Source of the DNA: Candidatus Saccharimonadota bacterium
Lineage (GTDB): Bacteria; Patescibacteriota; Saccharimonadia; Saccharimonadales; Saccharimonadaceae
Assembly: GCA_016286785.1 (NCBI GenBank)
Contig: JAEEUB010000010.1
Span: forward strand, 1-37,721
Direction of reading: 5' to 3'
DNA length: 37,721 bases
Made by a program: the position numbers and the translations under genes. Positions 259 to 13,636 of the stretch are shown here, one piece after another; within the stretch, counting starts at the first letter, position 1, and the number at the start of each line of letters is the position of its first letter. The notes under the pieces were generated by a model, which was given only the letters and a program-made list of their open reading frames with translations, was not told where the DNA came from and searched no databases.

Positions 259-377
259 AGTATAAGTTTGTTCAAAAACTCATAAAGTAAAACTGACGAT
301 GATTAATTGCACAACTAAATTGTTAAAATATTTCTAAAGACGATTAAAATAAGTGCTCGCAGCTTTAGACTGTTATC

Positions 378-406
378 ATCTTATCGCACCCGCAACTTTT
401 TGTCAA
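378..406 (-). promoter_or_regulatory. rrn promoter
   Basis: Minus-strand TTGACA (401-406), a 17-nt spacer and TAAGAT (378-383) make a near-consensus sigma70 promoter. It would start transcription near 371, giving a leader of about 113 nt before the 16S 5' end. The -10 box contains the TAA stop codon (381-383) of the upstream minus-strand gene, so the rRNA promoter sits inside the end of that coding region. Confidence 0.85.
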
Positions 407-1514
407 GTACTTTTTTAGATTTTTTGAGAGATTTTGGCCAAAACAGCCACAAAATCACTGCATCACCTATAGCAATCAAAACCATTAACCACCACGGAAA
501 CTCAATTGTCTTTTGCACGCAAGGCCCAGCCCCTGTATTTGGAGCTTTTATGGCTACATTATTAGTTAAAAATTCAGCATTCTTCGCCACATCGCTCGCG
601 CTCTCACTATTATTCGCGGCGACATCATTTACCATCTCACCTTTAATAGCCGTGTTGCTATCATTAGCTTCTATATCACTATTTACCTCGGCCTCCTCCC
701 TAATTATATCCCGATTATCCTTACTCTCATTATTCTCGTTGGTTTCCAGAGACGAAGGTTCATCATTGTCCGTAACCGTTTCTCGCGGCGGAAAATACCT
801 CTGACCTTCTTCAGCAGAAAACATCAAACGGCACTCTGTTCCCTCAGCATAATCTGGCTCCATAAGGCACGAAGCATAGTCAAAATATCCCATTGCGTTA
901 AAATACGGGTCAGCAAAAGCAGCGTAAGAAATCACCCCGAGCCTGTTTGCAAGCAGATTTGACCCAGGAACGTATAACTCAAATTCTTGATTAGCTGGAA
1001 TTTTGTTACCCTTATTATCCCTTTGAGCATATATTAAATGCGCTCCAGATAACGTCTCATCGAATAGCTCATCAGTATAAATACCGTAATTAAAGATTCG
1101 ATCCGAACCATAATCAAACCACCCTATATACAATTCGCCAAGCCTAAGAGATTCATGAATTCCCATATACCTCATCATTGCGTCCTCATCAAAAAACAGT
1201 ACTTTAATCGTTTCTTCACCCGGATTGATACTAGTCACCACAAATTGCTGTTGCATTAATTGATTAAAGGCTTGAAATTTTGACTCCATGCCATCCATTT
1301 TAGAAAAGAATAATTCCTCCAAACAAATAGAATCAACCCCGCAAACATCTTCTGCTTCCCTATCATATTCCTTTTTATATTCTAATAACTCCGAAACCGA
1401 ATACCAGACATGATCTTTGTTGTCTATATAAAGAGCCGAAGCTTGCGACGTTCGAAAACTGGCCACGAACAGTCCAGCAACTAAGACTGATAAGAATATA
1501 GATTTTTTCTCCAT
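381..1514 (-). CDS. secreted surface protein with sortase-like C-terminal anchor
   Basis: The 377-aa protein starts with a signal peptide (MEKK, hydrophobic core, cleavage near ASA at ~26). A mostly folded region follows to ~245, with several Cys residues. Then comes an Asn/Glu/Ser-rich low-complexity stalk (~245-325). At the end are APNTGAG, a hydrophobic segment (~343-361) and a Lys/Arg tail, which is the order of a Gram-positive cell-wall sorting signal with PNTG in place of LPXTG. The start is supported by a good ribosome-binding site (AGAGGAG). No enzymatic domain is recognised. It is probably exported and wall- or membrane-anchored (inference). Its stop codon lies within the rRNA promoter. 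Confidence 0.75.
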   Translation of the reverse strand: MEKKSIFLSVLVAGLFVASFRTSQASALYIDNKDHVWYSVSELLEYKKEYDREAEDVCGVDSICLEELFFSKMDGMESKFQAFNQLMQQQFVVTSINPGEETIKVLFFDEDAMMRYMGIHESLRLGELYIGWFDYGSDRIFNYGIYTDELFDETLSGAHLIYAQRDNKGNKIPANQEFELYVPGSNLLANRLGVISYAAFADPYFNAMGYFDYASCLMEPDYAEGTECRLMFSAEEGQRYFPPRETVTDNDEPSSLETNENNESKDNRDIIREEAEVNSDIEANDSNTAIKGEMVNDVAANNSESASDVAKNAEFLTNNVAIKAPNTGAGPCVQKTIEFPWWLMVLIAIGDAVILWLFWPKSLKKSKKVLDKKLRVR

Positions 1515-11317: not shown

Positions 11318-11674
11318 GGGGCTGATCATAGCTTAGACGAATTATTAACAGACGCGATGCATGTCGATTAAATACCGTAAGTATTAAATAAGTGCTAAAA
11401 ACACGAAAACAGCGCATGTCATGTACATGCCTGCTTATGCCTAATTTTTTTCAAGGCTGATTTCGGTTTAAGGTTCCGTAGAATCGAAATTATCATATAA
11501 CGGAAATAAGGCTATTTGGTTGGCGAAAAATAGCTCTAAAATTAGCCATGGCGCTGGCCAGTTTCGTTTTCTGCAGCTAGCTAGAACTTGCCAAGACAAA
11601 ACAGAAAACTATGCATGTAGATTCACGTCCAAGTGATAGTCCGGACCCGGAGGCAGTATCCGGCAGCTCCACCA
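11318..11674 (+). ncRNA. ssrA: transfer-messenger RNA (tmRNA)
   Basis: The 357-nt RNA rescues stalled ribosomes with SmpB, which is also encoded here (36788-37204). The acceptor stem GGGGCTG (11318-11324) pairs with CAGCTCC (11664-11670), with the G3-U70 pair used by AlaRS, followed by encoded ACCA. The tag reading frame starts at GCT (11394) and ends at TAA (11442-11444), encoding AKNTKTAHVMYMPAYA. Odd points: the T-arm (11647-11663) has a perfect 5-bp stem but loop GGCAGTA instead of TTCRANY, and the D-loop region near 11334-11347 also departs from the usual GGATTCGACGGG. Confidence 0.95.
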
Positions 11675-11779: not shown

Positions 11780-11890
11780 AAAGAAAAAGACCGGTAACTG
11801 CGAGGAAAACCGGTCTTTCTTGTAGAGTGTGGAGTTATTTTGGCTAATTTTTTGTTTTGACCTTTTGAATAATTTTTTTATTCAAAAGCT
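11780..11890 (-). ncRNA. probable new small RNA (~110 nt)
   Basis: A minus-strand unit between ssrA and comM with a near-consensus promoter (11897-11925) and its own intrinsic terminator: arms 11809-11818 and 11786-11795, ten perfect base pairs, then TTTTTCTTT. Predicted length is about 110 nt. The 5' part contains a perfect 11-bp hairpin (CTTTTGAATAA / TTATTCAAAAG, around 11863-11889). An A-rich single-stranded linker (AAAACAAAAAATTAGCC) joins it to the terminator hairpin. No start codon or reading frame of note. It does not resemble 6S, SRP or a known riboswitch. Confidence 0.6.
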
Positions 11891-11896
11891 ACCTCT

Positions 11897-11925
11897 ATAA
11901 TAGCGCTAAAAAATGGTTATGTCAA
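11897..11925 (-). promoter_or_regulatory. strong promoter of the small RNA
   Basis: Minus-strand TTGACA (11920-11925), a 17-nt spacer and TATTAT (11897-11902). With the rrn promoter this is the best sigma70 match in the window. No protein gene lies downstream before the terminator. The remaining plus-strand sequence to 12048 is AT-rich with nothing else recognised. Confidence 0.75.
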
Positions 11926-12048: not shown

Positions 12049-12076
12049 CTACTTAAAACATAGCCGTTTTAAGTAG
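12049..12076. repeat. perfect 11-bp inverted repeat upstream of comM (putative operator)
   Basis: CTACTTAAAAC (12049-12059), a 6-nt spacer and GTTTTAAGTAG (12066-12076). It ends one base before the -35 box of the comM promoter. There is no T-tract, so it is not a terminator. The position suits a dimeric regulator acting on the competence gene (inference). Confidence 0.65.
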
Positions 12077-12112: not shown

Positions 12113-13636
12113 ATGATAGCAAAAATTCATTCAATAGTACCCTTTGGTTTCGATGGTAAGCCAGTCGAAGTAGAAGGCGACACAAACAATGGTCTCCCAT
12201 CATTTAACATTGTCGGAATGGCCAGTAAAACCGTCAACGAAGCCAAAGAGCGCGTGCGTAGCGCCATAATTAATTCCGCTTTCTCATTTCCAAGAAAAAA
12301 AGTCACCATCAATCTTGCGCCCGCGGAACTTCATAAAGATGGCACATATCTAGATTTACCAATCGCATTATCCATATTGATACTATCTAAGCAATTAGCG
12401 CAGGCCACAGTAGCGAACAAGCTTTTTGTAGGTGAATTATCCCTTAATGGAGAATTGCGACCAATAAAAGGCATTATAAACATCGTAGAAACCGCCCGTA
12501 AAGCTAATTTTAAAGAAATATACTTGCCATTCAAAAATCTACCCCAGGCCTCACTCATTTCTGGAATCACGATTTATGGAGCAAAAACTCTTCAAGATAT
12601 TTTTCTTCATCTATTAAATCAAAAAGAGCTCCCTGTCGCCCAAAAACCAAATATCAAAAAACTCCTAAAAGCTCCAAATAAAAACCACTCGCCCGTCTTT
12701 TTAGATCATATCATGGGGCAAGAATCGGCAAAAAGAGCGCTAGAAATCGCCATCTCTGGGCACCACAATATCTTAATTTCTGGCCCGCCAGGCGCAGGTA
12801 AAACCTTGCTCGCCAAGGCTGCGGCAAATCTCTTGCCAGACTTAACTGCTAATGAAATGATTGGGCTAACTAAAATTTACTCAATTGCCGGTCTAACAAA
12901 CGACGAGATTATCAAAAACCGCCCCTTTAGAAACCCTCACCACACATCGAGCCAGATATCAATCATCGGTGGCGCTAGCGGTCCCGGCGAAATTTCGTTA
13001 GCTCATAAAGGAATCTTGTTTCTTGATGAAATTCCCGAATTTTCAAGGACCACCCTGGAATCACTAAGGCAGCCCCTAGAAGACAAAGCAATTTCCATCT
13101 CAAAAGCTAATCACAAAGTAATTTACCCCGCAGACTTCATGCTGATAGCCACTATGAACCCCTGCCCGTGCGGATATCTAGGTGACCCCACGCACGAATG
13201 CCACTGCACCGAACTACAGATAAAAAACTACCAAAAAAGACTTTCTGGTCCGCTTTTCGATAGGATTGACTTAACCATAAGCGTAGAAAGGGTAGATAAC
13301 GAAAGCTTGCGCACGTCCACATCTAAGATAAGCGCCAAACATACTGTTGTAAAAAATAAAATAACAGATGCATTGAGCCGTCAACTCCTAAGATATGGCG
13401 AAGATGGCACTTTTAATGGTTCCCTTTCATCTTTTGAAGTGGCAAGAAAAATCAAACTAGAATCTACTGCCGAAAAGCTTCTTTTAACAGCTTCAAAAAA
13501 GCTTAATCTCTCGGCTAGATCATATTTTAAAACAATTAAAGTCGCCATGACCATCGCCGATCTAGAAGGCAAAACCATTGTTAAAGATTATCACATTGCC
13601 GAAGCCCTAACTTACAGAAAACGTCAAAATGCCTGA
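12113..13636 (+). CDS. comM: ComM / YifB family Mg-chelatase-like AAA+ ATPase
   Basis: 507 aa, full length for the family. An N-terminal ChlI-type (Lon-protease-fold) domain (~1-170) precedes the Mg-chelatase-like AAA+ domain: Walker A GPPGAGKT at 224-231, Walker B ILFLDEIPEF at 301-310, and the family's Cys-rich patch (PCPCGYLGD...CHC) at ~350-365. A C-terminal helical domain follows. ComM is a branch-migration helicase that helps integrate incoming DNA during natural transformation, so the gene suggests competence. It is a single gene whose promoter is flanked by a perfect inverted repeat. Confidence 0.95.
   Translation: MIAKIHSIVPFGFDGKPVEVEGDTNNGLPSFNIVGMASKTVNEAKERVRSAIINSAFSFPRKKVTINLAPAELHKDGTYLDLPIALSILILSKQLAQATVANKLFVGELSLNGELRPIKGIINIVETARKANFKEIYLPFKNLPQASLISGITIYGAKTLQDIFLHLLNQKELPVAQKPNIKKLLKAPNKNHSPVFLDHIMGQESAKRALEIAISGHHNILISGPPGAGKTLLAKAAANLLPDLTANEMIGLTKIYSIAGLTNDEIIKNRPFRNPHHTSSQISIIGGASGPGEISLAHKGILFLDEIPEFSRTTLESLRQPLEDKAISISKANHKVIYPADFMLIATMNPCPCGYLGDPTHECHCTELQIKNYQKRLSGPLFDRIDLTISVERVDNESLRTSTSKISAKHTVVKNKITDALSRQLLRYGEDGTFNGSLSSFEVARKIKLESTAEKLLLTASKKLNLSARSYFKTIKVAMTIADLEGKTIVKDYHIAEALTYRKRQNA

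Follow-up and report, generated by a model that had tools for sequence, protein, structure and literature searches.

The window, by which we mean the whole stretch of DNA analysed, comprises 37,721 nucleotides of contig JAEEUB010000010.1 from a Candidatus Saccharimonadota bacterium. Between the tmRNA gene ssrA and comM, both on the plus strand, a short element lies on the minus strand, here called RNA1. The features of the locus are as follows.

11318-11674, plus strand: ssrA (tmRNA), convergent neighbour of RNA1 (Rfam RF00023, 86 bits)
11780-11891, minus strand: RNA1 small RNA (5' end near 11890, as judged from the position of the -10 box; 3' end in the T-tract)
11786-11818, minus strand: RNA1 terminator hairpin, AAAGACCGGT-loop-ACCGGTCTTT, 10-bp stem (T-tract at 11788-11780)
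11798-11804, minus strand: CUCGCAG in the RNA1 terminator loop, complementary to CUGCGAG of the 16S rRNA leader
11822-11848, minus strand: unpaired linker core of RNA1, TTAGCCAAAATAACTCCACACTCTAC, within the A-rich linker (invariant alignment columns)
11862-11888, minus strand: 5' hairpin of RNA1, 11 bp, AT-rich, arms CTTTTGAATAA and TTATTCAAAAG (fold and covariation)
11897-11925, minus strand: RNA1 promoter TTGACA-17-TATTAT (sequence and conserved hexamers)
12113-13636, plus strand: comM, divergent neighbour of RNA1

A preliminary description of the window had placed an undescribed small RNA of about 110 nt here, composed of a TTGACA-17-TATTAT promoter, an 11-bp hairpin, an A-rich linker, and a 10-bp hairpin with a T-tract. 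All these elements were confirmed, and the claim of a small RNA held, with the promoter, hairpins and terminator conserved in relatives. The terminator loop reads TTTCCTCGCAGTT, and the T-tract follows the stem. The predicted fold has an energy of -28.3 kcal/mol, compared with -14.9 ± 2.9 in dinucleotide shuffles (z = -4.7; 0/200). The absence of a reading frame was also upheld; no open reading frame of 60 or more amino acids overlaps RNA1 in the window, and RNA1 lacks any ATG. With its own promoter and terminator and no open reading frame, RNA1 meets the sequence-level criteria for an independent non-coding unit. The neighbouring ssrA ends in a terminator of its own, separate from that of RNA1.

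The promoter had been described as matched in quality only by that of the rrn operon. No other site in the window agrees with the consensus at 11 or more of the 12 positions; the rrn promoter (TTGACA/TAAGAT, about 378-407, minus strand) has 10 of 12 when scored by eye. As shuffled windows contain 1.0 such site on average, the promoter alone is weak evidence. No Rfam 15 family, including 6S, SRP and tmRNA, matched RNA1 above the gathering threshold, and the matches remained at chance level even at an E-value of 10. The literature that we searched contained nothing relevant on small or regulatory RNAs of Saccharibacteria and no account of RNA1 itself, in agreement with the earlier statement that it belongs to no recognised family. 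It had also been called abundant, an inference from sequence; in the absence of transcript data, transcription of RNA1 in cells is likewise inferred from sequence alone.

A 12-bp inverted repeat, CTACTTAAAACATAGCCGTTTTAAGTAG, lies at 12049-12076 just 5' of comM, and resembles a terminator or an operator.

Conservation of RNA1 and of its surroundings

By DNA search, copies of RNA1 with 94-73% identity were found in 32 of the 35 other genomes of the genus, Nanosyncoccus. Among the 112 copies scanned in the genus, 109 are preceded by the promoter hexamers TTGAC[A/T] and TANNNT; two of the remaining three have TTGACG, and one is truncated at a contig end. A covariance search of relatives, proposed earlier as a check, detected RNA1 family-wide near ssrA and comM. 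The model used (R2), which scored 136 bits (E = 5e-25) at the window locus, detected RNA1 in 41 of the 43 genomes of Nanosyncoccus. For the family's other genera the count was 62 of 64, and beyond the family the model gave weak matches in 26 of 188 genomes. Applied to a sample of the phylum, this model revealed no RNA1 beyond the family. As R2 was trained on the genus, it under-detects RNA1 at this distance, and a 25-nt hairpin pattern was used there instead. This pattern matched 154 of the 188 genomes of the order's other families, with four extra matches in family f1, and its reversed control had no match in 295 genomes. One copy of the 5' hairpin with the A-rich block was found beyond the order, within the same class (G406). 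A pattern of linker plus loop matched at least 117 genome-contig stretches, nearly all with titles indicating Saccharibacteria. One sequence titled Candidatus Nomurabacteria (L112, JAITNW010000008.1) has a Saccharibacteria RNA1, and is probably mislabelled or from a mixed bin.

The two stems are supported by covariation. In the 5' hairpin, five of 11 pairs change on both sides, and 95.7% of cells are paired (34 sequences); in the terminator stem, six of ten pairs change on both sides. The stems vary with compensation in the genus alignment, where variation is absent or nearly absent from the linker and from the CUCGCAG loop of the terminator, and the terminator stem differs among species around a constant loop. 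No other loop motif of RNA1 is conserved as widely as CUCGCAG, and families f6, f24, f26, f31 and f37 mostly retain CUCGCA. The most ancient block of RNA1 is the hairpin plus CUCAAAAACAAAAA, which is nearly invariant among families and is present beyond the order. Beyond the family, RNA1 has an older form, in which TAGCACTTGAATAAAAAAAGTGCTCAAAAACAAAAA is followed by a hairpin with the loop TTCTCGCAAG. In much of the order RNA1 is longer, and a separate intrinsic terminator precedes comM.

Two variants were observed. At loci L357-L362 of family f33, RNA1 is long, and CUCGCAA occurs in the loops of both the second hairpin and the terminator, or in that of the terminator only. Copies L095 and L114 have an additional linker insert of about 40 nt that possibly forms a stem-loop (CTTGCTGGG...CCCAGCGAG).

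RNA1 remains near ssrA and comM across families, with a varying gene order. In Nanosyncoccus, the RNA1-ssrA pair is flipped relative to comM. The family's other genera have RNA1 (forward), ssrA (reverse) and comM (forward), in that order, and in most other genera and families comM lies 3' of RNA1 on the same strand. In family f31, RNA1 is located directly 5' of comM with a terminator in between. Because the context is rearranged while RNA1 persists, a stand-alone RNA is favoured, and RNA1 as a leader or terminator of ssrA or comM is ruled out by changes of synteny that leave it intact. The link to competence or tmRNA that had been suggested from its placement was not supported; RNA1 is still a separate, terminated unit after rearrangement of gene order between families, and no complementarity to tmRNA was found for the motifs checked. 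Pairing with mature rRNA or tmRNA was rejected, as no consistent site was found. We also rejected CUCGCAG as a generic motif of terminator loops; in 0.95 Mb of related loci, it lies in a convincing terminator hairpin only in RNA1, and the five other matches resemble coding sequence.

At the level of sequence and structure, RNA1 is a real element conserved across at least one order of Saccharibacteria. The preliminary description had overlooked the CUCGCAG loop as its most widely conserved part, as well as the second RNA and the 16S leader partner described below.

RNA2, an antisense partner in Nanosyncoccus

A search of the window's own genome with RNA1 gave one further significant match, of 28 nt, on another contig (C23:55296-55323). 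It is antisense to the RNA1 linker, and 25 of its 28 positions pair in this genome. The match lies within the following unit.

L003, about 1943-2075 (G000:C23:55243-55375), plus strand: RNA2, a promoter-to-terminator unit around the 28-nt antisense match

Homologs of RNA2 share a 5' hairpin (P1, loop ACGUUGAGAG), a GGGUGG...CCACCU stem that encloses the antisense stretch, and CACCUAGAAAU. Seven of the nine P1 pairs covary. With a cut-off of E ≤ 0.01, an RNA2 model matched 39 of the 43 genomes of Nanosyncoccus and no genome among 252 others; a few of the 39 matches are merely RNA1 read on its antisense strand. RNA2 matched no Rfam 15 family.

In most genomes, the duplex energies of RNA1 and RNA2 from the same species are far below those of shuffles. 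The bases beside AGCC in RNA1 and GGCU in RNA2 change together (UUU/AAA, UAU/AUA, UUUU/AAAA). This flank of the duplex is paired in 87 of 100 cognate cells, compared with 70.5 ± 2.8 when species are permuted, and none of 50,000 permutations gave a value as high. On a ComM tree, all co-changes are in the same direction, with none opposite; the independent ones number only a handful, too few for significance alone. The complementarity between RNA1 and RNA2, with its covariation, is thus established in silico. RNA2 fits the definition of a sponge at the sequence level, having covarying complementarity to the seed region of RNA1, with few independent changes on the tree. That it acts as a decoy and titrates RNA1 in cells is an inference for which no binding data exist.

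RNA2 lies within 600 nt 5' of a gene for a G5/DUF348 (Rpf/YabE-like) protein in 20 of 30 genomes and elsewhere in the other ten, being located ahead of tRNA-Cys in G033; these ten genomes rule out that RNA2 merely leads the rpf-like gene. In the majority of genomes, RNA2 ends in a terminator of its own, and the gene that follows has a separate extended -10 box. In two genomes (G035 and G208) RNA2 is present and RNA1 was not detectable.

In G156 (L280) and G002 (L286), a short RNA2 retains the hairpin and the CACCUAGAAA block, and the whole antisense domain is gone. The terminator loop of RNA2 from G001 (L041), G009 (L049) and G156 (L280) also contains CUCGCAG, as does that of RNA1.

Complementarity between RNA1 and the 16S rRNA leader

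The left end of the window contains an rrn leader, which reads AGTCTAAAGCTGCGAGCAC on the minus strand at about 371-353. Its CTGCGAG complements the RNA1 loop. Two of its features are relevant here.

356-362, minus strand: CUGCGAG, candidate RNA1 target within the 16S rRNA leader; lies in a hairpin loop (arms, 363-369 and 333-339)
316-327, minus strand: boxA-like TTTAACAATTTA of the leader, 3' of the candidate target

TTTAACAATTTA is read as the boxA that is usual in rrn leaders. CTGCGAG was present in every Nanosyncoccus 16S leader recovered, and the only 6-mers common to all 20 tabulated leaders of this genus are CTGCGA, TGCGAG and the TTAACA of boxA. When the flanks are included, the match in Nanosyncoccus extends to 9 bp, A[A/G]CUGCGAG with CUCGCAGUU of RNA1. 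In the other genera of the family, the leader has either UGCGAG or GUGGAGUU, the complement of the RNA1 linker AACUCCAC, in which CUCCAC complements GUGGAG; the motif often lies in a hairpin loop that is closed by CAAC/GUUG. In G253, the flank is changed on both sides relative to Nanosyncoccus, the leader having ACCUGCGAG and RNA1 having CUCGCAGGU.

The leader motif is coupled to the linker. In all 20 genera of the family with a CUCCA linker, the leader has GUGGAG[U/C]U or UGCGAG, in one case as GUGGAGCU, and in all three genera without that linker (G124, G162 and G223) it has neither motif (Fisher's test, about 6e-4, calculated by hand from 1/C(23,3)). For 19 genus representatives, the longest complementary runs sum to 151 nt, compared with 106 ± 4, and at most 118, when the leaders were shuffled 300 times; the match of a single genus is often not significant. 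The leader motifs were noticed first and then counted on much the same genomes, so that the counts describe a pattern without testing it blind. As the genera are related and the three linker-less genera may form one clade, the data points are less independent than the Fisher and permutation figures imply. The seed in the leader is short (7-9 nt), and the GUU of GUGGAGUU doubles as part of the stem of the leader hairpin. Within these limits, the in silico analysis shows that leader complementarity is coupled to the presence of the linker. Pairing of RNA1 with the leader in cells is an inference, without binding data.

Beyond the family, both leaders read from family f3 carry UGCGAG, and those read from f6, f24, f26, f31 and f37 have no complement to the RNA1 loop. 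Since the latter five families mostly keep CUCGCA, pairing with the leader cannot account for the conservation of the loop across the order; where the leader has no match, the loop must have some additional or more ancient partner.

Other observations were made on these operons. In G231, two more CTGCGAG sites occur at about 6060-6100 of L383, about 1.7 kb past the 16S start and possibly in the 16S-23S spacer. The 16S leaders L445 (f37) and L453 (f24) contain GUGCUCUCAAAAAAC or GUGUCUCAAAAAAC, which is sense-like to the invariant RNA1 block GUGCUCAAAAAC, and may mimic an rrn leader element.

Possible function of RNA1

We propose that RNA1 is a trans-acting, base-pairing small RNA that tunes rRNA synthesis or 30S maturation through the leader, with RNA2 as a decoy; this is inferred from sequence and is, in our judgement, as likely to be wrong as right. 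RNA1 would pair in trans through exposed, C-rich, single-stranded seeds, namely CUCCAC in the linker and CUCGCAG in the terminator loop. Within the family of Nanosyncoccus, the likeliest target would be the leader of the rRNA precursor just 5' of the boxA-like antitermination element. The contact would be loop-loop in Nanosyncoccus, and in most other genera the linker CUCCAC would pair with GUGGAG in the loop of the leader hairpin. Binding to the nascent leader would alter rRNA antitermination or early 30S assembly, so that ribosome production would follow the level of RNA1. In Nanosyncoccus, the dedicated antisense RNA2 would bind the linker and withdraw RNA1 as a decoy or sponge. The direction of the regulation could be inferred at most, and we commit to neither sign.

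At the sequence level, RNA1 fits a trans-acting small RNA and RNA2 a sponge; neither belongs to an Rfam family, and there is a chance of something categorically new. RNA1 meets the criterion for trans-acting small RNAs in having an unpaired, conserved seed complementary to RNA2 and to the 16S leader, both encoded elsewhere. Listeria LhrC and Staphylococcus RsaE are Hfq-independent small RNAs with multiple seeds. Like these, RNA1 is short, has its own promoter and terminator, and exposes unpaired seeds rich in C, of which one lies in the terminator loop. Unlike these, it has no UCCC seed in the genus-alignment consensus, thereby failing the LhrC criterion of several UCCC seeds in loops, and no sequence relation was found; its best target found is the rRNA leader and not ribosome binding sites, and it is conserved order-wide. 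It also fails the criterion for Hfq-dependent small RNAs, as no Hfq was found in the genomes checked. Sponges and anti-sRNAs are known from EHEC (PMC4104026) and Caulobacter (PMC12559287), and a cis-encoded antagonist of a trans-acting small RNA is on record (PMC8687705). RNA2 is similar in being a second RNA with its own promoter and a long antisense stretch, and differs in being chromosomal in a reduced genome without Hfq, in having its own conserved hairpin, and in that its pairing covaries with RNA1. In rrn antitermination, the boxB, boxA and boxC elements act in cis (PMC10250234). The candidate RNA1 site lies in the leader hairpin directly 5' of boxA, where boxB would be, whereas the described system has no trans-acting RNA. 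No account of a separate RNA acting on an rRNA leader was found in the literature searched.

Four other explanations were considered. The strongest, which remains possible, is that RNA1 is an ordinary trans-acting small RNA whose C-rich seeds block the sites of ribosome binding on several mRNAs, in the manner of anti-Shine-Dalgarno small RNAs with multiple seeds; the leader match would then be incidental and RNA2 a sponge. In its favour, ACUCCAC and UCCUCGC each have a core resembling an anti-Shine-Dalgarno sequence, the seed shows the invariance expected under constraint by many targets, and families without a leader match retain the CUCGCA loop. Against it, the leader match comes and goes with the linker, and long complements of the loop and linker, besides RNA1 and RNA2, were not clearly enriched over a reversed control in 16 genomes, for which reason we set aside these segments as long-match anti-mRNA seeds. 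No mRNA target was found, with short targets not exhaustively covered.

A second explanation, which seems unlikely, is that RNA1 acts by binding a protein, such as a KH-domain protein like KhpA/KhpB or else a Nus factor, by way of its A-rich CAAAAACAAAAA linker and the UGCUCAAAAACA block, with pairing being secondary. The resemblance of the UGCUCAAAAACA block to boxA is loose and weak. The explanation is supported by the antiquity and near invariance of the hairpin plus CUCAAAAACAAAAA, by the occurrence of GUGCUCUCAAAAAAC or GUGUCUCAAAAAAC in sense orientation in some leaders beyond the family, and by the proteins encoded: Hfq was found in none of 20 genomes (the controls for the search were positive), and KhpA/B-type KH proteins were found in all 20. 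It leaves unexplained the covariation of RNA1 with RNA2 and the coupling of linker and leader.

A third, highly improbable explanation is that RNA2 is the functional molecule, a structured or riboswitch-like leader of the rpf/YabE-like gene, and RNA1 its antisense repressor in trans. The location of RNA2 upstream of the G5/DUF348 gene in two-thirds of the genomes is consistent with this, as is the conservation of P1 and CACCUAGAAAU even without the antisense domain. Against it stand the ten genomes with RNA2 elsewhere, including that with RNA2 before tRNA-Cys, the mostly separate RNA2 terminator, and the downstream gene's own extended -10 box. Repressing RNA2 cannot be the main role of RNA1, because RNA1 is far more widespread. 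Finally, that there is no separate RNA, the hairpin and terminator belonging to the ends of ssrA or comM or arising by chance, accords with the intergenic position and with some hairpins being common in AT-rich DNA, but is virtually eliminated by the conserved promoter, the covarying stems, the terminator of ssrA itself, and the order-wide conservation with zero control matches.

Returning to leader pairing by RNA1, a bolder form of this proposal, which we consider somewhat less probable than its negation, is that RNA1 is a functional bacterial counterpart of the U3 snoRNA, a free-standing RNA that pairs with the pre-16S leader beside boxA and is sequestered by a second RNA, in bacteria without Hfq. 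In eukaryotes, U3 base-pairs with pre-rRNA in its 5' external spacer. RNA1 would resemble it as a separate RNA pairing with the leader of the small-subunit rRNA precursor, which is only predicted, and differs in being bacterial and in its size and structure. RNA1 lacks the C/D boxes of U3, with no UGAUGA C box in the consensus as judged by eye. Of U3-like leader pairing, complementarity and coupling were observed, and nothing more. If the bolder reading is true, RNA1 would control rRNA transcription or 30S assembly. To our knowledge, there is no earlier case of a separate bacterial RNA acting on the leader of an rRNA precursor, and RNA1 would be the first.

Saccharibacteria are tiny bacteria that live as epibionts on other bacteria. 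How they switch between growing and non-growing cells has been stated to be unknown, and control of translation is suspected (PMC11665869). If the proposal is correct, an RNA that is conserved order-wide and pairs with the rRNA leader would be a direct handle on the growth switch of these epibionts.
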